Made by a program: the position numbers and the translations under genes. The notes under the pieces were generated by a model that was not told where the DNA came from, ran no database searches, and worked only from the letters and a program-made list of their open reading frames with translations. A stretch of DNA of 64,000 nucleotides from an uncultured Acinetobacter sp. GTDB taxonomy: Bacteria; Pseudomonadota; Gammaproteobacteria; Pseudomonadales; Moraxellaceae. Location of the stretch: NCBI GenBank assembly GCA_913777945.1, contig CAJYTY010000022.1, positions 1 through 64,000 of the forward strand, in the 5' to 3' direction. Positions 38,065-49,006 of this stretch are shown here, piece after piece; positions within the stretch are counted from its first letter, which is position 1; each line of letters starts with the position of its first letter.

Positions 38065-38556
38065 TTCGAATTTATTTGTAGTTATAGATATATTGGTCAA
38101 AGGACTTCTGCATATCTGTGGCAACAAACAGTATTGTGTAGGCCACAGTCTTAGATATCCTACATAACTTATGTTCACCTAAAATCTAGTTCACAAGGTA
38201 ATTTTAAAAATAGATGAATAATAATAATAAGTTATGATTTTGATTTTTAATTTTAGATATTGATGGTTCATGAAGTAGAGATTTTTGTTCAAATAAAATT
38301 CTAAAACAAGTAATTTCAATATTTTTGGGGTTAGATCAATTTTTCTAAATTTTTATCAAATTTACGTAAAGTTATATTTATAAAAAGCTATTTGTTATAG
38401 CTCTCTTACGTTCAATCATCAGACAATAATAAATGATGGCATCAAAATAAGTTTAATTTAATTCAATATGCTCAACTAATTTGAGCATATTGAATTAATT
38501 TTAATAACTTAATTAAAAAAGCCTACAGCTATCATTTATAATGACAACAATCACTA
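38065..38556. other. AT-rich gap between acuI and the biosynthetic operon
   Basis: About 490 bases with no convincing gene on either strand. The sequence is AT-rich with several T-runs, and its only clear element is the long hairpin at 38458-38498. It marks the boundary between the acu genes and the AT-rich operon that converges on it. Confidence 0.7.
38458..38498. terminator. Perfect 18-base stem, bidirectional terminator
   Basis: TTAATTCAATATGCTCAA (38458-38475) and its exact complement at 38481-38498 form an 18-base stem with a 5-base loop (CTAAT), followed by TTTTAAT on the plus side and AT-rich sequence on the minus side. It lies about 60 bases past the stop of the last minus-strand gene, so it most likely ends the biosynthetic operon. 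Confidence 0.8.
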
Positions 38557-39042
38557 CTACTTTACAGAAGTATATTTTCTGTTGTAATAAATTAGTGGAT
38601 TGTAGCTAACGTATTCATTTATATCACTATTAATTACTTCGCAAATATAAATATTATGAGAACCTATAGGACTAATTGATCTAATTTGTGCAAAAATATC
38701 AACAATTGAATCTTTTAAAAATAATCTTTCATTATTAGACTCATCCAGAGTAAACAGATCTTTATAAGCATCTACATCACGCTTGTTCGAGAATATTTCC
38801 GCGATATATTGCTGCTTACTATTAAGAAAATGTATATTAATCAAACTTTTTACATCAAGATGATTGTTCACCTTAAGGTTCTGGTTTAGGCAGAATAAAA
38901 AACAATTAGGTTCAGTCGAGACACTCATAAAAGAAGTAATAGTTGTACCTAATATATGGTTGTCTCGAGGTTTAATGCTAAATAAAGAAACCCCATGAGA
39001 GGAAAAACTCATGATGTCCTTAAATTTTTGAAAATTACTCAT
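38557..39042 (-). CDS. Flavin reductase-like protein (VlmR-like)
   Basis: 161 residues, the size of flavin reductases in two-component monooxygenase systems. Features: GVSLFSIKPRDNHILGTTIT then SFMSVSTEPNCFLFCLNQNL, the flavin-binding region of the HpaC/ActVB fold, and a C-terminal NPLIYYNRKYTSVK, where YYxRxY is usual. In valanimycin biosynthesis the reductase VlmR supplies reduced flavin to the amine N-hydroxylase VlmH. A candidate partner here is the acyl-CoA-dehydrogenase-fold protein at 42600-43619. Its start overlaps the upstream gene stop by 4 bases (ATGA). It is the last gene of the operon. Confidence 0.8.
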   Translation of the reverse strand: MSNFQKFKDIMSFSSHGVSLFSIKPRDNHILGTTITSFMSVSTEPNCFLFCLNQNLKVNNHLDVKSLINIHFLNSKQQYIAEIFSNKRDVDAYKDLFTLDESNNERLFLKDSIVDIFAQIRSISPIGSHNIYICEVINSDINEYVSYNPLIYYNRKYTSVK

Positions 39043-40034
39043 ATACTGTTTGTTGAACGTAATAGGGTCAAAAGAGATTTGATAGCTTTTCCTTGTGGAA
39101 ATGCAATATATTCATAATCAATTATCTGTGGTCGCCAGCTCATTTTATATTGCCGTTGTGAACGAGCAGGATAGACAACACCACCTTTACTTTCCATAAA
39201 TTTCATTATCTTATGAAAAGTAGGGGAGGAATTAAAGTTCAAATTTGGCTGTAGTTCTACCAAAGGTGTAAAACCAAAATTCAGATAATCTAAATCCTCT
39301 AATTCATTGAGTGCTTTCTGATTGATTAACTGCATTACTCCATCTTGAGTATCTGGGGCTTTACGAGTTATGTTGTGAAACCACCCCTTAAACTTACCAA
39401 AGTTTTTACTATATATAATATATGCGATGACCTCATTTTCCTTATTAGCTGTATAGAGCTTATGAAGTCCGGAATCTAAATTTAAGGTTTCAAAATCAGT
39501 AACCAAATTCGTTAAGTGTTTAGCCTTTTTGCCTTTTAACCAAGATTTATTGATTTCTTTAAGTCTAGGTTTAAGGATTTCAAAATTAGCCTGCTCATCA
39601 ATTCTTTCTACTGAAACACCACTTTTTTTTGCTTTATTAATTTTATTACGCAGCTGCTGGAACTTTTTTCCTTCAAGTGAGTAGTTTTTAATATCAATTG
39701 TATAAGATGCTCCTAATTGATTAATCAATAATGAGTTGTTTTCGAAAACTGGAATATCCTCTTTAGGAAAATGTAGAAAAAGATATTGGTATTTCTTGTC
39801 TTTACAGTACTTCAAAAAGTCTTTGAGTGTTTGTTCTTTATCATTTTGACTTGCTAGGATTCCACCCACGCTAATCAAAGTATTTTTATACTGAAAAAAA
39901 GCTATAGCGGATTTATCAGATATAAACCAAGTGAGATTCTTTTCAAAAAGTAGAGGAGATACAGAACTTCCGCAAAGGTCTAGAAGTTCTGTACCAATTA
40001 ATTCATTAGTATGTAAGGATCTAATAGAAAACAT
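39039..40034 (-). CDS. MprF/GNAT-fold aminoacyl-tRNA-dependent transferase candidate (VlmA-like)
   Basis: 331 residues, no membrane segments. The fold matches the soluble C-terminal domain of lysyl-phosphatidylglycerol synthase (DUF2156): a basic block LRNKINKAKKSGVSVERID, KEINKSWLKGKKAKHLTNL, then the acceptor region FKGWFHNITRKAPDTQDGVM and YLNFGFTPL. A related protein, VlmA, transfers serine from seryl-tRNA to isobutylhydroxylamine in the valanimycin pathway. In this operon it could acylate a fatty hydroxylamine. No dedicated seryl-tRNA synthetase is present. FemX-type amide ligases are an alternative. It overlaps the reductase gene by 4 bases. Confidence 0.68.
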   Translation of the reverse strand: MFSIRSLHTNELIGTELLDLCGSSVSPLLFEKNLTWFISDKSAIAFFQYKNTLISVGGILASQNDKEQTLKDFLKYCKDKKYQYLFLHFPKEDIPVFENNSLLINQLGASYTIDIKNYSLEGKKFQQLRNKINKAKKSGVSVERIDEQANFEILKPRLKEINKSWLKGKKAKHLTNLVTDFETLNLDSGLHKLYTANKENEVIAYIIYSKNFGKFKGWFHNITRKAPDTQDGVMQLINQKALNELEDLDYLNFGFTPLVELQPNLNFNSSPTFHKIMKFMESKGGVVYPARSQRQYKMSWRPQIIDYEYIAFPQGKAIKSLLTLLRSTNSI

Positions 40035-40043
40035 AGTTAACTC

Positions 40044-42587
40044 TTATTCTACGTTGTAGTTTACAGACTTAAAGCCTTGCTTTTTAGCAATATTTAAAAT
40101 GTTGCTTGCTTTTTTGAAATCTATACTTTTCCCAATACTTTGATGTTCTTCTGTATTATCCAAAGCCAATGCAATAGTTTCTGATAAACAAGCTAAATTA
40201 ATCCCAGCTGGGGCTTTTACCATATTGCAGTCACTATAAAATACTTCATTAGGCTGTCTCACTAGACCACCTTCATAGATTTTGAAATCATCATCATTTA
40301 CAAAGTCAAAAGGTCTGGCAGCGTCAAATACTAAAGCCGATTTTTTTAGATATTTAGTATTGAGGAAGCCTTTTCCTTCACTTGTCGCTGAAATGACTGC
40401 ATCTGCTTTCGAGAAAGCAATTTGATAATCGACCTCCAGAGAGAGTCCTAACTCAAGAAAATCATCAACTAATTTATCAAAATTGATCTTCTTATAATCA
40501 GTAGTACTTAGGTAAGAACTCAATTTGTCAAAAAAGGAATTTTTTGAAATTTGATAATCTGTAGTTAGACAGCTTTGTATTAAATAAGGAATAATTTCTT
40601 GCTGAATTTTTAATTCACTTCCTGGCCGGCCTACTAATATTAAATTGCCATATTTGTGAGCCACTCCTGAAACAGCTATTTTCCCTACGGATCCTCTTGC
40701 TCCTACAATGACCGCGCATGCATCTTCTACATTTTTATCTTCAATTAGTGAAAATAAGCTCTCTACTGTGGAAAGAGCAGTTAGTGAATTCCCATTAGTA
40801 ACTGTAAGGTTATTGGCATGAGGTAAAATGCTAGTCCCACCATTAGCGATTACAGATGTATATGCGCCTAGTCCTACCAGCTCAGCACCATTTTCTTCAG
40901 CGACTTGTAGGTATTCAAGCATTAAGTCTAGTTTCTCTTTTTCATTCAGCCGCATCATATCTTTTGGGCTAAGTGGGGAAAAGATAAACATTCCATTTGC
41001 ATATGTCTTATCGTTGTATACACTAAAAAAAGCGCCTACATCTGGGCTATAATCGATTCGAGCAATATCCAGAATTTCATCTGCAAGCTGCCGCAGTTGA
41101 TTATCATTAAAATTTTGTTTAATCGAATAAGGGAATGTATTTACTAGATCTTCAGCGGAAGTAGCATGAATGAAGAAAGCAAATGTTTTACCTGCATTTA
41201 AATTTTTATCTACAGTTTTATAGTTAATTTCGGCTATTTTAGTGTCATCTACATAAGAAACTGGGAATGAAATACTCAAATCTGGTAAAGAATCTTTATC
41301 TATATCTATCAAATTTCCAAACAGTACATCATAACGTCCATTCTTAATTATTTTGCAAATTTCTTCCAAGGCATTAATAAAACGATCAATATCATGAGAA
41401 TTAATGTTTAAAGGAGGTTCAAATCGAATTGAGCATGGTTGGGATAATAGAGGCATTACAAATATATTATGGTTCTTCAAAAGAAAACCACAAATGATAT
41501 AAGCTAGGCTGCCATTATTTTGACAGAAATTAATCAATATATTTTGTTGAGCCTCTTTATTATAAAACTCAAAAGCACGCATTAATCCCTGACCAGTAAA
41601 ATTAATGATATCTGAATGTTGATCTGTAAGGTTTCTTATGCGCTCATCTAGATATTTACTTAAATTGTTCACATTTTCATATATTTTGTTCTCAGTATTA
41701 TTCAAATGATTAATAACATTTAGAGCAACTGTTGCAGAAAGGGAGTTGTTAGCAAATGTAGAGCTATGTTTCTTATCAAAATTAAAATCATAGAATTGTT
41801 CTTTATAAATTACAGCACCAATAGGTACAATTCCTCCTCCTAATGCCTTTGAAAATAAAATACAATCTGGGAATATTTTATATTTCTTTGCTGCACAAAT
41901 ATCACCTAACCGTCCCAAGCCAGTTTGAATTTCATCAAAAATGGACATAGTCCCATGTTTCTCGCAGAGTTCAACAGCCAGTTTTAAAAACTCACATGTA
42001 GCTGGAAGCATTCCTCCTTCACCTAATACTGGTTCAACAATAAAAGCAGCAAATTCATTCGTGCTTAATTTGTTGATCAAGGCATCTGTATCATTTAAAT
42101 TCACATATTCATAACTATCACTGTCATGAATATAAGGCATTTTGAAGCGATTTGATCCACTCGCAGATAAGGCTGCAAATGTTTTACCATGGAAGCCCTT
42201 AAAAATACCAAGGACCTTACGTCTACCAGTTTTAATACGAGCCAGTTTCAGTGCAGCCTCAACTGTTTCAGCTCCGCTGTTCGTGGTTATACATCTGGAA
42301 TATAGATTGGAATTAACTGACTCAATTAAAGTTGTTGCAAACTCCTCAACTTTAGGATGAATATTAGGTTGTATGAAATTAGCCTGGTTAGAAGAAAAGT
42401 AATTTTGAATGGCTTCTTTTAAAAATTCTGGATTATGACCAAAAGGTACAGCCCCGTATTGCGCTAAATAATCATAAGCAATCTGACCATTAGACAAGTA
42501 AAAAATATTGTCTTTAGCTGATTGAGGGTTAAGGCTAATTTTAAATTTATTTAGAAGATTTTGGCGATATTCATTAATTTTATACAT
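40044..42587 (-). CDS. Aminotransferase class III / acyl-thioester reductase fusion (fatty-amine synthase candidate)
   Basis: 847 residues. Residues 1-~425 are a class III PLP aminotransferase: TTNSGAETVEAALKLARI (about 101-118), DEIQTGLGR (218-226), FSKALGGGIVPIGAV with the PLP Lys near 247, and SSTFANNSLS. Residues ~455-847 resemble acyl-ACP/acyl-CoA reductases: VGLGAYTSVIANGGTSIL and a Rossmann loop VGARGSVGKIAV (628-639). Together they would reduce an acyl thioester to the aldehyde and aminate it to a primary amine, as proposed for TamH in tambjamine biosynthesis (PigE of prodigiosin is a related fusion). This supplies a long-chain amine, replacing the valine decarboxylase of valanimycin. 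The intact motifs argue for an active enzyme. Confidence 0.82.
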   Translation of the reverse strand: MYKINEYRQNLLNKFKISLNPQSAKDNIFYLSNGQIAYDYLAQYGAVPFGHNPEFLKEAIQNYFSSNQANFIQPNIHPKVEEFATTLIESVNSNLYSRCITTNSGAETVEAALKLARIKTGRRKVLGIFKGFHGKTFAALSASGSNRFKMPYIHDSDSYEYVNLNDTDALINKLSTNEFAAFIVEPVLGEGGMLPATCEFLKLAVELCEKHGTMSIFDEIQTGLGRLGDICAAKKYKIFPDCILFSKALGGGIVPIGAVIYKEQFYDFNFDKKHSSTFANNSLSATVALNVINHLNNTENKIYENVNNLSKYLDERIRNLTDQHSDIINFTGQGLMRAFEFYNKEAQQNILINFCQNNGSLAYIICGFLLKNHNIFVMPLLSQPCSIRFEPPLNINSHDIDRFINALEEICKIIKNGRYDVLFGNLIDIDKDSLPDLSISFPVSYVDDTKIAEINYKTVDKNLNAGKTFAFFIHATSAEDLVNTFPYSIKQNFNDNQLRQLADEILDIARIDYSPDVGAFFSVYNDKTYANGMFIFSPLSPKDMMRLNEKEKLDLMLEYLQVAEENGAELVGLGAYTSVIANGGTSILPHANNLTVTNGNSLTALSTVESLFSLIEDKNVEDACAVIVGARGSVGKIAVSGVAHKYGNLILVGRPGSELKIQQEIIPYLIQSCLTTDYQISKNSFFDKLSSYLSTTDYKKINFDKLVDDFLELGLSLEVDYQIAFSKADAVISATSEGKGFLNTKYLKKSALVFDAARPFDFVNDDDFKIYEGGLVRQPNEVFYSDCNMVKAPAGINLACLSETIALALDNTEEHQSIGKSIDFKKASNILNIAKKQGFKSVNYNVE

Positions 42588-42599
42588 TTTTTATCTCTT

Positions 42600-43619
42600 T
42601 TAAAGGAATTGCTTATAAAATTGAAATTTACCTGTTGGATGATATTTAAGCATTTCAATATGATTAACTAATTTTAAAATTGATGGGTTTTTCATTACAT
42701 TTATTCCACCAATATTTTGAAGAACAAAGGATTTAATATTATCTAAATTTTGTTCTACCAAATATCTCAAATTTAGAACTTCACTTAAGCTCTGCTCGGT
42801 AAGAATACTTTCAGAGCAGATATTGTTTATTTGAGATAAGAGGGTAGTATTCAAATTACTGAATTCAACTAATCTTATTTTTATATTTGGAATATTCGAT
42901 AAATTTTCTGGAATATTATTCATTAATTCTTCAGCTATGCCAATATATGCACTTACTGCAAAATAATTAAATAAAGATAACCCATAAATTAAACATAGTG
43001 ATAATTCATCATCTTGTAGAGTGGAAAGCTCTTCTTCTTGTAAACTTACATTTTCAAATATTACTGCTTGGTTATCACAATATTTGAAAACTTCTAAGTT
43101 CCAAAAAGATTGTACTGAAATTCCCTCTCTTTTAGAGGGTAAGTTAATTAATTTAAGTTTATTGTCTAATGCTGTTGATAAGACATAAAAGTCAGAGATA
43201 CTTGATAAAGTACAAGGTTTCTTTTGACCATTTAAGATGAAAGAGTCATTGGTGATAGTGATTTCAGAAGAAGGATTAAAGACATCTACGCCAGCATTTC
43301 CTTCTGCAAAAGCAGAGGCGACCAATGCTTCATTTTGAATCACTTCTTTCAATATCTGAGATGCGTTTCTGAAAATCTCTGGATATTTAGCTAAAACTAA
43401 AACAATATGGTGATGCATAGTTAAAGCTATTCCCAAACTTGGCTCTAATGCCGCATTTTTACGAATAAGATCAGAAAGGGACTTTAGAGACTCGTTTGAC
43501 TCATTTGCCTTAGTATTTAAAGAAACAGATAAAAGTTTATTTTTTTGCAGATATTCTTTTAAACTTACTTTATCTTTAACTACTATGTGGTCAGAATTAT
43601 TTTCTTGCATTATATTCAT
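42600..43619 (-). CDS. Acyl-CoA dehydrogenase-fold flavoprotein, candidate amine N-hydroxylase (VlmH-like)
   Basis: 339 residues, shorter than the usual ~380. The fold signature is visible: a helical N-terminal half (LIRKNAALEPSLGIALTMHH), then the beta domain ALVASAFAEGNAGVDVFNPS, ITNDSFILNGQKKPCTLSSI, SDFYVLSTAL, with no clear catalytic Glu loop at the C-terminus. VlmH, which hydroxylates isobutylamine, belongs to this superfamily and needs a flavin reductase, which the operon encodes at its other end. A true desaturase (as TamP is thought to be in tambjamine) is the main alternative. The nearby 847-residue fusion would make the amine. Confidence 0.68.
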   Translation of the reverse strand: MNIMQENNSDHIVVKDKVSLKEYLQKNKLLSVSLNTKANESNESLKSLSDLIRKNAALEPSLGIALTMHHHIVLVLAKYPEIFRNASQILKEVIQNEALVASAFAEGNAGVDVFNPSSEITITNDSFILNGQKKPCTLSSISDFYVLSTALDNKLKLINLPSKREGISVQSFWNLEVFKYCDNQAVIFENVSLQEEELSTLQDDELSLCLIYGLSLFNYFAVSAYIGIAEELMNNIPENLSNIPNIKIRLVEFSNLNTTLLSQINNICSESILTEQSLSEVLNLRYLVEQNLDNIKSFVLQNIGGINVMKNPSILKLVNHIEMLKYHPTGKFQFYKQFL

Positions 43620-43624
43620 TTATA

Positions 43625-44794
43625 TCACCATGCTTTTTCTAAGATTTCAATAACTTCATGCCTTGTAGGCTTTACTGGGTTATAAATTATGGAGCCATCA
43701 ACCAAGGCTTTTTTTGCAATAAAATTAAAATCATCTAATTGCACTTTATTGGTTGATCTAAGCTTAGAAGGAAGTTTAGACATTTCTTCTAACTCTTGTT
43801 TTAATTGACTGATTTTCTTGATTAAGAGTTCTACACGGTTTTGTTTGCTGCTGGATTTATACTCATTTTCTGTTAGAAAAAGTAAAGAGAGTTCACTTAA
43901 CTCATCTAAAATATAATTTTTATTGAACTCTAAGACATGTGGTAAAAAAATACTGCAACACAAACCATGAGGGACTTTAAAATTAACACCTAATGCATGT
44001 GCTAAAGAATGTGTTAAACCAACCATTGAATTAGAAAATGCCATTCCTGCCATAGTAGATGCTTCTGCTAGAGCCAATCTTGATTCAAGATTTTGAGAGT
44101 CCTTCATTACTATAGGTAGGTTAAGTAATATTTTTTTAATGGCTGAGAAGGCAAGTTCAGATGAAATCGGATTTCTGCCGTTGCAAGTATATGCCTCAAT
44201 GCAATGTGTTAAAGCATCCATTGCTGTCATAGCTGTAATATACAACGGTAAATTTAGCGTCATTAGCGGATCAAGTAGGGCATAATCAGCCATTAAATAT
44301 GGTGAGTTGAAAATCAGCTTCTTATGTTTATCTGCAACAACTGCAACAGCAGTAACTTCTGAACCAGTACCAGCAGTTGTGGGAATGATGATAGAAGGTT
44401 TTAATCTATGTGGAAGATTATTTACTCCTAGATATTTCTCGAGATCACCCGGTAAAGTGACTGCAATATTTAATGCCTTAGAAGTGTCAATTACAGATCC
44501 ACCTCCAATGGCAATGATCAAATTACATCTATGCTTTTCATACAGTTCACGTGCACTGTAGACTGCATTAACACTACCATCTGGTGGAATATCATCGAAT
44601 ATCACAAATGGAATAGTATTTTCATTCAAGACACTTATTACAGGCTCATGCGCATTCGCTGCTGAAATTCCTTTATCTGTCATGATGAAAACACTAGATC
44701 CATCAAGCTTATGAATGATTTCTGGTAAGCATTTAAGTGTTGCTATTCCCGATAGTATTCGTACAGGGCTAAAAAACTCATAGTTATTAAACAT
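43625..44794 (-). CDS. Iron-containing alcohol dehydrogenase
   Basis: 389 residues, standard length. Signatures: the nucleotide loop AIGGGSVIDTSKALNIAVTL, TTAGTGSEVTAVAVV, TAMDALTHCIEAYTCNGRNP, and HSLAHALGVNFKVPHGLCCS, which contain the metal-binding Asp/His positions of the Fe-ADH family. It interconverts aldehydes and alcohols with NAD(P). Position inside the operon suggests work on a fatty aldehyde or on the serine-derived hydroxymethyl group; neither is shown. A protective role against leaked aldehyde is also possible. Confidence 0.88.
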   Translation of the reverse strand: MFNNYEFFSPVRILSGIATLKCLPEIIHKLDGSSVFIMTDKGISAANAHEPVISVLNENTIPFVIFDDIPPDGSVNAVYSARELYEKHRCNLIIAIGGGSVIDTSKALNIAVTLPGDLEKYLGVNNLPHRLKPSIIIPTTAGTGSEVTAVAVVADKHKKLIFNSPYLMADYALLDPLMTLNLPLYITAMTAMDALTHCIEAYTCNGRNPISSELAFSAIKKILLNLPIVMKDSQNLESRLALAEASTMAGMAFSNSMVGLTHSLAHALGVNFKVPHGLCCSIFLPHVLEFNKNYILDELSELSLLFLTENEYKSSSKQNRVELLIKKISQLKQELEEMSKLPSKLRSTNKVQLDDFNFIAKKALVDGSIIYNPVKPTRHEVIEILEKAW

Positions 44795-44804
44795 TGTTTA
44801 TATC

Positions 44805-45320
44805 TCAGATAATTAAATTTTTTATAAAATTAATTTTTCCACTTATTGGAATATGCTCATGCTTAGCAACAATATTTTTAGCAATAAATGAAGGTAAGAG
44901 ATTGGCTTCAACAATTTCTAGACAATTGATAAAACGTATAGCCAACGAAGCATCACCGCTTGTTAAGAATCTATTATTTGCTACAGCTACTGTATTGCTC
45001 TCTTGGAGAGTTAATATTTTAAACGCCAGAAGGGGGTGCTTAACTACGATTGCCAAGTCATAATCAGTAATAGATTTCTCATCTTCATTAATAAGATGAA
45101 AAGATTTATTCCAAACCTGTAAAACAATATATCCATTTTTTAAATAATTAATTTTAAATAAAATTCTAGCCCCATCTCTGAAATCTTGAATTTGCTCTTT
45201 AAGCGCATAGTTTTCTTTACTGGCTTTATCTAAAATATTACCAATAATTCTCAAACTACTATTTAAATATAAATGGACAATATGAGTAGAAGCTTTATTA
45301 ACTAATTTATTTTTAATCAT
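44805..45320 (-). CDS. SCP2-like small lipid-binding protein
   Basis: 171 residues, no signal peptide. The central and C-terminal parts resemble sterol carrier protein 2 domains: ARILFKINYLKNGYIVLQVW, DYDLAIVVKHPLLAFKIL and FLTSGDASLAIRFINCLEIV. SCP2 folds bind long acyl chains and often act as carriers. In an operon that handles fatty amines it may hold or solubilise hydrophobic intermediates between enzymes. The family assignment is from pattern only; it could also be an enzyme of unknown type. Confidence 0.55.
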   Translation of the reverse strand: MIKNKLVNKASTHIVHLYLNSSLRIIGNILDKASKENYALKEQIQDFRDGARILFKINYLKNGYIVLQVWNKSFHLINEDEKSITDYDLAIVVKHPLLAFKILTLQESNTVAVANNRFLTSGDASLAIRFINCLEIVEANLLPSFIAKNIVAKHEHIPISGKINFIKNLII

Positions 45321-45324
45321 TAAG

Positions 45325-46215
45325 TTAAATCCCTATATACTCGAGTCGTGATTTTTGCATTTGATGAACCATTGAGTTTGAAATTTCAAGACGCATCTCA
45401 GGGGTTGTATCTTTAAGTAATATTCCATCAACTAAATAATAATCTTCGATTAAGTGTTGATTTTCTTCTATCCCTTGCTGATAAAGAGATTCTCTTTGTA
45501 AAATAATTTTTTGAATATTAGAGGTATTCCAGATATTTAGCCCTTCATGGATGCATTCTTGAAGACCATTTTTAATTTCTGGATTAGTATTTACTTTTGA
45601 TTTAAGAATTTCGGCACATATGGTTAAATGCCTAACCTCATCAATATTGGCATATCTCTGAATTTCTGATGCTTTTTTATAAAACGGAAGCCATTTAACC
45701 TCACTTAATTCTGCTGTTGGTGCAAGGATACCCTCCAAAATAATTGTAATAATACTAATACCAGCATAAAAATCGTTTTTATCAACTATCCATTTTTTAA
45801 TAAAATCCTGGAAAGGAATCACAACTTGTTGATGAGAATAGTTTAGTACTTCAGCCATCTCTTCTAAAGGATTTATAAGGGCTAATAAACCATTATCTTT
45901 AAGATAAGTTCTAAAAAGATAACTATGGTGAGTTTCATCAATTAATAGGGTGTTTAAAAAATCATATTCTTTTAATGAGGGTGCTATTTTCACAATATCT
46001 AGAATTGCTTTAGAAGCATAAAATTCTGTTAATGATTTAAAGCTAAGTTCTTGTTTTAGAGAATTTTCTAAATATTTGTTATTTAATTGGATATCTTCCT
46101 TAAAAGTACCTATCTTATTTTCAGTACTTTTAGTAGTAAACCAATCATTCAAAATATTACTTTCAACTTTTGCTTTCATATTAGTAGCTTCTGTTAAAAA
46201 ACCAGGTAAATTCAT
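45325..46215 (-). CDS. Ferritin-like diiron oxygenase candidate (VlmB-like)
   Basis: 296 residues, mostly helical. Probable iron ligands form the ferritin-like set: Glu near 64 (SLTEFYASKA), E94xxH97 (LLIDETHHSYL), Glu161 (ITIILEGILAPTAEL), and E193xxH196 (NIDEVRHLTICAEIL). This pattern fits diiron N-oxygenases such as AurF/CmlI relatives and the VlmB branch. VlmB is reported to oxidise an alkyl hydrazine to the azoxy group by four electrons. The flanking VlmO-like, VlmA-like, VlmH-like and VlmR-like genes favour this over an unrelated fatty-acid oxidase. Confidence 0.72.
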   Translation of the reverse strand: MNLPGFLTEATNMKAKVESNILNDWFTTKSTENKIGTFKEDIQLNNKYLENSLKQELSFKSLTEFYASKAILDIVKIAPSLKEYDFLNTLLIDETHHSYLFRTYLKDNGLLALINPLEEMAEVLNYSHQQVVIPFQDFIKKWIVDKNDFYAGISIITIILEGILAPTAELSEVKWLPFYKKASEIQRYANIDEVRHLTICAEILKSKVNTNPEIKNGLQECIHEGLNIWNTSNIQKIILQRESLYQQGIEENQHLIEDYYLVDGILLKDTTPEMRLEISNSMVHQMQKSRLEYIGI

Positions 46216-46221
46216 AGTAAC

Positions 46222-46614
46222 TCAATCCACTAGATTAATTGTTGGGGTTTTAAATGTATCTTTTTCTTCCTTCGGGAAATTACCAAGTAAACCTCTATCA
46301 AGAAATAAATGCGTATACAGAGCAATAAAACTATAATCATTCTTGACGAAATAAAGCCAAATGAGGCTGATAATTGTTATGGTGGCAAAGTTGTGACATA
46401 TATTATAAAGTTTATAGAATATTTTTGCGGTATCATTGTCACCCTTTAATAAATTCCATATTCTACCTGGTATATATCCGATTAAATCAATCAATAAAAA
46501 AAAGACTAGATAATAAATAATATTTATTTGGTTAAATAAAATTATTGTTAAAATGATTGAAATAAAAAAAAGATAAAAACTCTCTTTTTTAAGGAAATGA
46601 ATTTTGTTTAGCAT
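46222..46614 (-). CDS. Small integral membrane protein, candidate hydrazine-forming enzyme (VlmO-like)
   Basis: 130 residues. About three to four membrane segments: YLFFISIILTIILF (about 14-27), IIYYLVFFLLIDLIGYIPG (32-50), and FATITIISLIWLYFV (76-90), with polar conserved-looking loops (PGRIWNLLKGD, HLFLDRGLLGNFPKEE). VlmO is an integral membrane protein reported to form the N-N bond in valanimycin by rearranging an O-seryl hydroxylamine. Context, not strong sequence evidence, drives the assignment. The DUF4260-type membrane family has a similar HxxxDR motif and is an alternative. It overlaps the hydrolase gene by 7 bases. Confidence 0.55.
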   Translation of the reverse strand: MLNKIHFLKKESFYLFFISIILTIILFNQINIIYYLVFFLLIDLIGYIPGRIWNLLKGDNDTAKIFYKLYNICHNFATITIISLIWLYFVKNDYSFIALYTHLFLDRGLLGNFPKEEKDTFKTPTINLVD

Positions 46615-47411
46615 AACTCACCTATATTTGTTTTAATTCCCTTCACTATTTGTTGGGGATCTTTAAGCCAGCTACTATGTTTATTTCCTTTAATATTTTC
46701 TCCTAAATCAATACTTTCAAGTTTATAATTATTAAACATTTCGGCTAGTTTTTTTGTTGACTGCAGGGGGGCAAAATCATCACCTTTAATATTAATAAAA
46801 TAAGCCTTGGCTTCGGATAAACTATCATTATTTAAATAGTAGCTATAATTACCTGTAAGGGCAGTGTGGCACCAATCTTTAATTAAAGTCTTAGCTTCTT
46901 TAACTCCAAATCCAATCTTATAGCCTGGTAGGTAACCATATAAATTTGTTAAAATTTTAAATAAGCCGACAGCTTTCAGAATAGTGAGTTTCCCCAGGCC
47001 ATCCCAATTTTTATAATGAATATTACCGGTTGCAATTCCTATGACAGGTATTGTTTTATCGATTGCATATAAAGTTGCTAAATGCCCTCCAAGACTGTGT
47101 CCAAGTAAAATAATATTTTTTGTATCAGCAGAACTGATTAAATGAGGCACAAAATCCTTTACTAAATCCGCATATCCGTAGTCTTTGCCTTTTTCAATGT
47201 GAGGTTGATTTTCTCCACAACAAGGATAGTCTGCAGTAACTACGTTAAATCCATAGCTATTTAGTTCAGCTATAAAATTTTGATATTTTTTAATTGGTAC
47301 ACCAATTGCAGGCAATAATATAAAAGTTATATTTTCAGATGTAGATTTACCTGCTTCGAATTTTTTTACTGTAACAGAGAACTTATTATTAAAAAGAAAA
47401 TTTTCATTCAT
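46608..47411 (-). CDS. Alpha/beta hydrolase (serine aminopeptidase S33-like)
   Basis: 267 residues from the ATG at 47411, which has GGGGAA 8 bases upstream (the in-frame TTG at 47426 is rejected). The nucleophile elbow is GHSLGG with Ser106. The oxyanion strand reads FILLPAIGVPIKKYQNFI, and a C-terminal KHSS block could supply the His. Such hydrolases cleave esters, thioesters or amides. In this operon it may release or trim an acyl chain or act as a type II thioesterase supplying precursor. The ribosome site lies in the end of the HD gene, so both are one transcript. Confidence 0.83.
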   Translation of the reverse strand: MNENFLFNNKFSVTVKKFEAGKSTSENITFILLPAIGVPIKKYQNFIAELNSYGFNVVTADYPCCGENQPHIEKGKDYGYADLVKDFVPHLISSADTKNIILLGHSLGGHLATLYAIDKTIPVIGIATGNIHYKNWDGLGKLTILKAVGLFKILTNLYGYLPGYKIGFGVKEAKTLIKDWCHTALTGNYSYYLNNDSLSEAKAYFINIKGDDFAPLQSTKKLAEMFNNYKLESIDLGENIKGNKHSSWLKDPQQIVKGIKTNIGELC

Positions 47412-47415
47412 GGCT

Positions 47416-48174
47416 TTATTCCCCAAATGGATTCATGGAAATCATCACTGGTAGACCTAATTGTGATAAGAATTTTGTTCGTGAGCTTTTAACAGTTTTT
47501 CGTTCTTCTGCTAATAATTTTTTGAATTCTGAGTTAAATCTCAGACGTGGATATTTCTCTAGAACTTCCGTTCTATAATCCTTTGATAAGGTAAATAATT
47601 TATCCCCGACTACATCACAGGATGCACCTTGTTGAAGAAGAATTACTTCAGATTCATTGTCTTCAGCAATATGACCATTCATATGCATGCATATAGCATC
47701 TTTGACAGTTTTGATTTTGTTTTCGTCATAATTTAAGTGCTTTGCTTTTTTTTCAAATTGCATTGAGCTTTCATATGTAAAACATCTACAACCTTTTGAT
47801 TCTTTATGATTATCTGTAAGACCGATGTCATGATACAAAGAAGCTACCAATAAAACTTCAGGATCATATTTTCTTTGATCCTGAAGGCCTATCGCAGCAC
47901 CCCAAAAATAAGTTCTCCATGAATGATTGATAAGAGTACCTGGAGCTTTTTCATTCAGCTCATTTATCGCTTCTACAATAATCTTAGTATCAGGAACTTT
48001 TATATCTTTTAAATTTATATTGCTTTTTGAACTCCCAATATGAAGTTGAGACTTCATAACACCCAGCATACTAGGCAAAAGAATTTCATTTAGAAGTTTA
48101 AGTTTTTCTTTAGTGGTGAGATGACCATCTGTTGATTGCATCCATTCAAAGCTACCAATTTTTTTTATAGACAT
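47416..48174 (-). CDS. HD-domain protein, cyanamide hydratase-like
   Basis: 252 residues from the ATG at 48174 (GGAA 8 bases upstream; a TTG at 48186 is rejected). HD motifs in order: NHSWRTYFWGAAIGL with His84, SLYHDIGLTDNHKES with His115-Asp116, and AICMHMNGHIAEDNES with His164/168. Spacing resembles the Ddi2/cyanamide hydratase group rather than cyclic-nucleotide phosphodiesterases. It is the first gene of the operon. A role in metal-dependent hydrolysis or oxidation of a nitrogen-rich intermediate is possible; HD-fold diiron oxygenases are known, but this is inference. Confidence 0.75.
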   Translation of the reverse strand: MSIKKIGSFEWMQSTDGHLTTKEKLKLLNEILLPSMLGVMKSQLHIGSSKSNINLKDIKVPDTKIIVEAINELNEKAPGTLINHSWRTYFWGAAIGLQDQRKYDPEVLLVASLYHDIGLTDNHKESKGCRCFTYESSMQFEKKAKHLNYDENKIKTVKDAICMHMNGHIAEDNESEVILLQQGASCDVVGDKLFTLSKDYRTEVLEKYPRLRFNSEFKKLLAEERKTVKSSRTKFLSQLGLPVMISMNPFGE

Positions 48175-48184
48175 TCTTTTTTCC

Positions 48185-48208
48185 AATTTAGAGCATTTAC
48201 TCTAAATT
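48185..48208. promoter_or_regulatory. 9-base inverted repeat at the start of the biosynthetic operon
   Basis: AATTTAGAG (48185-48193) and CTCTAAATT (48200-48208) around a 6-base spacer, just upstream of the HD gene ATG. It may be an operator overlapping the -10 region, or a 5' mRNA stem-loop next to the ribosome site. Confidence 0.5.
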
Positions 48209-48232
48209 AATTCATACAGATCTGTCTGTCAA
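48204..48232 (-). promoter_or_regulatory. Promoter candidate of the biosynthetic operon with internal palindrome
   Basis: On the minus strand a perfect -35 TTGACA (48232-48227) is followed after 17 bases by TAATTT (48209-48204). The spacer contains a 10-base perfect palindrome ACAGATCTGT (48216-48225), a good place for a repressor. The -10 is a weak match, so strength is uncertain. Confidence 0.5.
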
Positions 48233-49006
48233 TATTGTCTATTAGATATACTTAAATTTGATAACTGTTCTCATCATTCTTTATCTTAAATAACTAATAT
48301 TGCTAAAAATTTTAAAATTAATTTCTTATATATAAGTAAAATGACATGAGTACCGTATAAGGTAATTTATTTAGTTTGGCTACATTATAGTTGTTGATTC
48401 TAAATATTTTTTACACATTTAAAGAACGTATATTTTTTATTATTTAGATAATAATTAGTATTTTGGCTTTTAGCAGGGAATGCATTAAGGCTACTATTAA
48501 TAACGGATCTAATCATTTCTTGTACAACCAAAGTAGCTTTGTTTTTAGAGATGTTTTTCTACATGAAAGAGCCATTGGATAGGTCGGTATCGAAATTGGA
48601 CATTTTGTATAAATTAGTGAGGCTACAATTTTAGAATTTTTTCTTAGCAACACTTTTACGTGAAATACCTGTGTCTTGGAAGTTTTCGTTAGGCTCTGTT
48701 GTTCCATAATCAATTTCATCTATTACCATAGATTCTGTTATCAATATAATCAAATAACTTCACCACCTTGACTAAGAGCAGGTCGAGGTTTAATCTATAT
48801 CAATAATAATGAACTTAATGATAGCTGTTATTTATTTAACATAATATACATTATGCGAAATTATATGTATTTTATTATCCTAGAGTTTTCTGTGATCTAT
48901 ACGTTCTAATTTCCTCACGTAATTCCTTCTTTTTTGGTTTACTCTATAAATTGAAACGCTTCAAAAATTGCGCTGACCAACTATAAGTAAATGACTAAAT
49001 ACAAGG
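48233..49006. other. AT-rich gap with gene remnants between operon and FNT gene
   Basis: About 770 bases without an intact gene. On the minus strand, 48741-48631 reads as an open 36-residue tail (DEIDYGTTEPNENFQDTGIS and a Lys-rich end) that stops with TAA. About 30 bases on, ATG 48603 opens MSNFDTDLSNGSFM before a TAG, with readable sequence beyond it. This looks like the end of one decayed gene and the start of another. I cannot name the families. Confidence 0.4.

Follow-up and report, generated by a model that had tools for sequence, protein, structure and literature searches.

A ten-gene island of an uncultured Acinetobacter with a predicted route to a fatty azoxy compound

What is made by the ten-gene operon that an uncultured Acinetobacter sp. 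carries on an island missing from one of its relatives? The operon lies in contig CAJYTY010000022.1 (C22 of a source assembly of 2.49 Mb in 68 contigs, 64% complete), of which the first 64,000 nucleotides are the window analysed here. Its product is likely to be a fatty azoxy compound formed by the valanimycin/azodyrecin route, as suggested by homologues of VlmA, VlmO, VlmB and VlmH encoded together with a TamH-like fusion enzyme. Homology supports the azoxy pathway proposed in a first-pass annotation of this DNA, and the cluster appears to be a variant of an azoxy pathway already known. Searches of the open-licence literature by title, opening of the abstract and term counts turned up neither a cluster of this kind in Acinetobacter or Photorhabdus nor an azoxy product from Photorhabdus. 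Recent versions of antiSMASH include an azoxy rule, by which automated annotation may by now pick up clusters of this kind. Azoxy natural products have been called rare; VlmA/VlmH pairs were surveyed in actinobacteria only (PMC9379638).

Gene content of the operon

Ten open reading frames (ORFs) on the minus strand fill positions 38557-48174, all of them where the first-pass annotation had placed them. Some assignments rest partly on plasmid pSA3239 of Streptomyces lavendulae, where one region is annotated, in order, as DUF2156 protein, acyl-CoA dehydrogenase, hypothetical protein, flavin reductase, VlmB-like protein, permease and serS. From the first gene to the last, the operon encodes:

47416..48174, minus strand: HD-domain protein resembling the cyanamide hydratase family (PF01966, E value 3.6e-8)
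46608..47411, minus strand: alpha/beta hydrolase, a core gene in common with Photorhabdus (Abhydrolase_1, E value 1.1e-11)
46222..46614, minus strand: VlmO-like membrane hydrazine synthase, predicted to form the N-N bond (residue spacing and pSA3239 match)
45325..46215, minus strand: predicted VlmB-like ferritin-type diiron azoxy synthase (PDB match and conserved residues)
44805..45320, minus strand: SCP2-fold lipid carrier-like protein, fold predicted (model against UbiJ-SCP2 and SCP2)
43625..44794, minus strand: iron-containing alcohol dehydrogenase, possibly for tailoring or aldehyde reduction (Fe-ADH, E value 8.6e-41; ADH_Fe_C, E value 6.8e-46)
42600..43619, minus strand: predicted VlmH-like flavin N-hydroxylase with acyl-CoA-dehydrogenase fold (Acyl-CoA_dh_M and pSA3239 homology)
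40044..42587, minus strand: TamH-like fusion of class III transaminase and acyl-thioester reductase, predicted to convert acyl thioester to fatty amine (domains and motifs)
39039..40034, minus strand: predicted VlmA-like aminoacyl-tRNA transferase (LPG_synthase_C, lacking the MprF flippase domain)
38557..39042, minus strand: flavin reductase, VlmR candidate (Flavin_Reduct, E value 8.2e-21)

The junctions range from -7 to +12 bp, with overlaps of 7 bp (hydrolase/VlmO-like) and 4 bp (VlmA-like/flavin reductase) and spacings of 4-12 bp elsewhere, so the genes are tightly packed as annotated and do overlap, with "several" a slight overstatement for two of nine junctions. The operon is AT-rich, as had been noted (GC 31.3% versus 40.4% in the remaining window), and the first gene has an ATG start at 48174 preceded by what by eye is a plausible ribosome-binding site. 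Domain searches agree with the earlier calls of Flavin_Reduct, LPG_synthase_C, Aminotran_3, Fe-ADH, alpha/beta hydrolase and HD domains, and of Acyl-CoA_dh_M just under its cut-off.

Homologues of the azoxy enzymes

The VlmB-like protein (296 amino acids) has no Pfam match, but its residues 53-296 match the PDB entries 6d9f/8wvr, 'Putative VlmB homolog' (E value 4.2e-41), and E56, E64, E94xxH97, E161 and E193xxH196 are invariant in all 46 rows of an alignment. The metal ligands are assigned from the ExxH pattern, with E56 or E64 as candidates for the metal-binding glutamate of the first helix. The nearest protein to the VlmB-like product (97%) is labelled Acinetobacter baumannii. A protein search of plasmid records with VlmB returned 11 records (H1-H11), all from Streptomyces and all with the matched feature annotated 'VlmB-like protein'; in the two that were looked at, the VlmB-like gene is near serS and acyl-CoA dehydrogenase genes, neighbourhoods indicating that azoxy-type clusters occur on Streptomyces plasmids.

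The VlmO-like protein (130 amino acids) has D43, H74, H102 and D106 at spacings of 31, 28 and 4, the same as those of D51, H82, H110 and D114, which a review reports to be essential in VlmO (PMC11705231), and each of the four is conserved across 39 of 39 alignment rows, the window counted. It is 34% identical over 122 of its 130 amino acids to the protein encoded beside VlmB on pSA3239, and has a weak match to DUF4260 (E value 0.072), a weak similarity also ascribed to Ady6 (PMC9379638). A structure model gave two chance-level matches in the PDB (E values 3.9 and 4.4), and the fold is therefore not comparable with any solved structure.

The VlmA-like protein (331 amino acids; PF09924, LPG_synthase_C, E value 2.2e-42) is 31% identical to the DUF2156 protein of pSA3239. 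In a tree of 43 rows, with midpoint rooting only, 37 cluster proteins (that of the window and 36 others) fall on one side of a branch with support 100/95, and six other family members, four of 809-864 and two of 356-380 amino acids, fall opposite. In the first-pass annotation, the reading stood or fell with whether the diiron, membrane and MprF-like proteins are related to VlmB, VlmO and VlmA, respectively, and homology was found for all three.

The VlmH-like protein scores just below the cut-off of Acyl-CoA_dh_M (32.2 bits versus 33.3; E value 1.2e-7) and is 26% identical to the acyl-CoA dehydrogenase-family protein of pSA3239 (E value 1e-30), a homology by which it has the character of a putative VlmH of the azoxy pathway. 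In Micromonospora sp. C31, Rhizocola hellebori and Micromonosporaceae KJ-029 (loci L043, L044 and L046), VlmH-like and VlmB-like domains occupy one reading frame of 716-802 amino acids, a predicted gene fusion that links the two enzymes; matches to VlmO, VlmA and the transaminase are absent from the stretches fetched for these loci, where the pair may possibly have been put to a different use.

The fusion protein (847 amino acids) begins with a class III transaminase (Aminotran_3, E value 5.8e-67) and ends with a part that matches PDB 4ppm (E value 1.8e-12), reported to be a structure of PigE (PMC9594044). The domain order is swapped with respect to PigE, fusion residues 5-344 corresponding to positions 388-730 of the PigE profile, and is instead that of TamH of the tambjamine YP1 pathway, which is described as having an N-terminal class III transaminase and a C-terminal acyl-thioester reductase with a GxxGxxG motif and a catalytic cysteine, and as yielding fatty amines with its partner TamA (PMC9594044). 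GxxGxxG from residue 629 and Cys800 lie in blocks that are kept in the rows of Acinetobacter rudis, two Photorhabdus and the cyanobacterium Symploca. In domain order, GxxGxxG and Cys, the protein has the features of a putative TamH-type fatty amine synthase, which backs the fatty-amine entry step of the first-pass annotation. TamH differs in that its partner is TamA (ANL-ACP) and its pathway leads to a pyrrole product, according to the same source (PMC9594044); the ten genes include neither a counterpart of that partner nor a pyrrole gene.

Proposed pathway

At the level of sequence, the operon has the features of the VlmA/VlmH/VlmO/VlmB route to aliphatic azoxy compounds. The reaction order given here is borrowed from the cited papers, and every step is a prediction for this operon, as are chain length, amino acid and product. 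First, the reductase domain of the fusion would convert an acyl thioester to an aldehyde, from which the transaminase domain would form a fatty amine. Second, the VlmH-like enzyme, supplied with reduced flavin by the neighbouring reductase or a different one, would produce an N-alkyl hydroxylamine. Third, the VlmA-like transferase would load an amino acid from aminoacyl-tRNA onto the hydroxylamine oxygen. Fourth, the VlmO-like membrane metalloenzyme would rearrange the ester to an N-N bonded hydrazine, and fifth, the VlmB-like diiron enzyme would oxidise the hydrazine to an azoxy acid. The SCP2-like protein may hold the greasy intermediates, and the iron-containing alcohol dehydrogenase, the hydrolase and the HD protein may trim or alter the head group.

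Serine, favoured by the first-pass annotation as the amino acid of the third step, is not upheld: domain searches found no aminoacyl-tRNA synthetase family among the ten genes, and the azodyrecin cluster, which also has no dedicated aminoacyl-tRNA synthetase, is proposed to use alanyl-tRNA (PMC9379638). The azodyrecin clusters of Streptomyces (ady/azd) resemble the operon further in their homologues of VlmA, VlmO, VlmB, VlmH and possibly VlmR and in an amine proposed to arise from an aldehyde via a transaminase, but the proposal has a separate dehydrogenase and transaminase for the amine and a methyltransferase and putative desaturase for tailoring (PMC9379638), whereas the Acinetobacter operon has a single TamH-like fusion, with SCP2-like, iron-containing alcohol dehydrogenase, HD and hydrolase genes instead. 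The valanimycin cluster (vlm) has counterparts in the operon for VlmA, VlmO, VlmB, VlmH and possibly VlmR, and differs in obtaining its amine by valine decarboxylation, in the seryl-tRNA synthetase VlmL and in tailoring by VlmJ/VlmK, as described in PMC11705231 and PMC9379638; none of these is in the Acinetobacter operon, which like its lack of a synthetase lacks any decarboxylase family among its ten genes. Loci of Streptomyces atratus JCM 3386 (L042) and of S. lavendulae pSA3239 (L074) likewise hold VlmO, VlmB, VlmH-like and VlmA-like genes together; the former differs in its high GC and in a transaminase match with neither reductase domain nor fusion, and the latter in the presence of serS. 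S. atratus is named as the source of ElaO/ElaB (PMC11705231), and L042 is compared here as a locus, not equated with the ElaO/ElaB cluster.

Distribution and phylogeny

Scanning one genome per species with the VlmB alignment identified 45 loci: A. rudis, 12 Photorhabdus, one Symploca and 31 Actinomycetota. In tblastn searches of these loci (E value up to 0.01; contig ends cut some of them, including A. rudis L004, and the Symploca contig begins 181 bp ahead of the VlmB match), matches were found to VlmO in 38, VlmA in 35, the VlmH-like protein in 42, the transaminase in 38, the hydrolase in 17 and the flavin reductase in 7. All four other core genes were matched within the fetched stretch in 33 of the 45 VlmB loci, each in a named genome, and the grouping of the genes is therefore not due to chance. 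The core is partly present in Symploca. When the reductase part of the fusion was searched for (E value up to 10), it was found in A. rudis, the 12 Photorhabdus and Symploca only, actinobacterial loci matching the transaminase part alone; in this sample, the fusion thus marks the non-actinobacterial branch.

The Photorhabdus loci (L005-L015 and L040) have hydrolase, VlmO, VlmB, VlmH, fusion and VlmA on one strand in the same order in 12 of 12 cases. The first-pass annotation had allowed that related operons might consistently contain pyrrole/prodiginine or siderophore genes; the 12 loci share the six genes of the azoxy core, and in P. thracensis, the sole locus whose ORFs were listed, nothing else stands between the neighbours of the core, an IclR-family regulator and (by eye) an aspartokinase gene, which answers the point for that locus. 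The GC of the Photorhabdus operons (0.41-0.42) is like that of their surroundings (0.36-0.44), which suggests that the operon is probably an old resident of Photorhabdus.

A. rudis keeps nine of the ten genes in an order differing from that of the window, with the SCP2-like, iron-containing alcohol dehydrogenase, VlmH-like, fusion, HD and hydrolase genes at one contig end and the VlmO, VlmB and VlmA genes at another (L003, L053); the two contig ends would form one cluster by an inferred junction. The flavin reductase proposed as VlmR is present as an adjacent gene in the window but has no support as a fixed part of the cluster, being unmatched in the fetched cluster stretches of A. rudis and Photorhabdus (the best A. 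rudis match, 27%, is on another contig). A genome of the same taxonomic order as the window, G354, has VlmO, VlmB, hydrolase, a split fusion gene and VlmA (L064), apparently a decaying copy of the cluster. In another genome, G159, contig C215 encodes a distant VlmB-like protein (L065) beside ORFs that by eye are ferredoxin-like and RND-like, the other azoxy genes being unmatched there.

Phylogenetic analysis of VlmA places the window and A. rudis with Photorhabdus (93/84), next G354 (100/99) and next the cyanobacterium (100/97). In the VlmB tree, the Actinobacteria are on one side of a branch with support 100/99, the window and A. rudis group with those of Photorhabdus (98/94), and G354 and Symploca have long branches; the two trees broadly agree, with the deep order left unsettled.

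It is about an even bet that azoxy biosynthesis has a distinct Gram-negative and cyanobacterial branch, represented by these loci, in which the fusion feeds fatty amines into VlmH, VlmA, VlmO and VlmB, at least 12 Photorhabdus genomes have the bare six-gene core, and Acinetobacter adds a lipid carrier, an iron-containing alcohol dehydrogenase and an HD hydrolase to give an azoxy lipid whose head group has no known precedent in Streptomyces. If so, a rare chemistry would extend beyond the actinobacteria, and the full set in Acinetobacter and the fixed Photorhabdus core would open Gram-negative hosts for study of VlmO, an N-N-forming membrane metalloenzyme. The sets would also predict metabolites not yet seen in these hosts; a novel head group or novel late steps are expected from the three additional genes and from amine entry through a single protein.

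Genes outside the common core

The hydrolase has matches of 42-45% at each of the 12 Photorhabdus loci; the HD, SCP2-like and iron-containing alcohol dehydrogenase genes are seen beside the core in Acinetobacter only (the window and A. rudis); tblastn found these three in none of the 45 loci, some stretches, such as A. rudis L004, ending at contig ends. The HD protein, with a counterpart in A. rudis at 65%, matches TIGR03401 (E value 3.1e-16) with 59.6 bits versus a cut-off of 109.85, and PDB 6dk9 (E value 5e-5) with H...HD...H...D aligned. The SCP2-like protein has no family match and no significant PDB sequence match, and has seven homologues at 55-97%, that of A. rudis at 57%; the A. rudis counterpart of the iron-containing alcohol dehydrogenase is at 71%. 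That these three genes are kept with the core in A. rudis despite gene rearrangement argues that they may belong to the pathway.

Alternative products

Several observations weigh against a fatty azoxy product or against parts of the reading set out above. The cluster is rare: a VlmB-like gene is present in two of 149 Acinetobacter genomes and three of 341 genomes of the order (the source genome counted in both, and G159 having the distant VlmB alone), and in the class (369 genomes) and phylum (398) samples only in the source genome. At the G354 locus, a transposase-like ORF interrupts the fusion gene, and the stretch read there gave no match to the VlmH-like gene. The VlmA tree program issued a long-branch warning, and all 15 gammaproteobacterial rows of the VlmB tree are held together with the weaker support of 94/69, several on long branches. 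The SCP2-like model, which matches SCP2 folds (best Foldseek match UbiJ-SCP2, E value 9.5e-5), is of moderate confidence (predicted local distance difference test score 67.9), and the flavin reductase resembles VlmR at the broad-family level only (24%, E value 8e-8, to the flavin reductase of pSA3239). The reductase domain of the fusion matches the acyl-ACP (acyl carrier protein) reductase 6jzq weakly (E value 0.045) and the prodiginine enzyme PigE better, and in NCBIfam the fusion scores best against PigE and the VlmH-like protein against PigA.

One alternative is that the N-N intermediate is itself the endpoint or is diverted to a hydrazine, azo or diazo-type lipid, or that the hydrolase, HD protein and dehydrogenase cleave the azoxy acid to give a smaller nitrogen compound. 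The three genes seen beside the core in Acinetobacter only and the hydrolase could act after azoxy formation, and Dob3, a different diiron enzyme, is reported to form a diazo group (PMC13061610), but the VlmB-like protein retains the metal-site residue pattern, and VlmB and the homologues named in a review give azoxy products (PMC11705231), which makes such an outcome unlikely.

An alternative with very little probability is that the fatty amines made by the fusion serve a different end, for instance a urea lipid of the phurealipid type or the tail of a tambjamine or prodiginine, with the azoxy genes as passengers. The Pig matches and the similarity of the reductase part to 4ppm would suit it, as would the report that phurealipids are built from fatty amines in Photorhabdus (PMC4486325). 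The Pig matches are, however, far under their cut-offs (356.5 of 850 bits for PigE and 32.7 of 500 for PigA), domains for carbamoyltransferase, pyrrole-forming enzymes, AMP-ligase and carrier protein are absent among the ten genes, and every one of the 12 Photorhabdus loci has VlmA, VlmO and VlmB genes together with the fusion. The phurealipid genes are given as plu2076 and plu2237, and P. asymbiotica, described in that account as having no homologue of plu2076 (PMC4486325), nevertheless carries the azoxy cluster (L006). A phurealipid cluster as the identity of the Photorhabdus operon was ruled out, since plu2076 and plu2237, the two genes reported there as disrupted, lie elsewhere (PMC4486325). 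A prodiginine or tambjamine cluster was also rejected, PigE and PigA being under cut-off and the ten genes including no pyrrole-forming family.

That the MprF-like protein aminoacylates a membrane lipid in a lipid-remodelling operon is hardly credible, for although PF09924 is the synthase domain of MprF, the flippase half is absent, a separate MprF of 864 amino acids is encoded on another contig of the same genome, and the tree groups the protein with azoxy-cluster proteins.

The genomic island

The operon that probably directs the synthesis of a fatty azoxy compound is part of an island and is followed by a possible terminator:

38160..48828, no strand: island of approximately 10.7 kb, missing from an empty site in relative G036 (BLAST; edges approximate)
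38458..38498, no strand: possible transcription terminator, an 18-pair hairpin past the last gene (T-run on the plus strand)

In a BLAST comparison of the window with G036, the flanks of the island are 98.6% and 99.3% identical. The flanking genes, a zinc-type dehydrogenase and a formate/nitrite transporter whose proteins are 99% and 100% identical in G036, are approximately 340 bp apart there versus 10.9 kb in the window. The empty site shows that the cluster was gained or lost as one unit: the operon was either inserted in the lineage of the window or lost from G036 in a single piece of approximately 10.7 kb. A plasmid origin of the operon was considered and rejected, none of 72,556 plasmid records being a near match. 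A 9-base AAT-type match was the only direct repeat found at the island ends, and no target-site duplication is claimed on that account. A promoter scan was uninformative, with 33 promoter-like sites, fewer than the mean of 60.1 in shuffled sequences. At the left edge of the island (window 38114-38171, compared with L073), the empty-site relative has an extra segment of approximately 60 bp with a hairpin, which is absent from the window.

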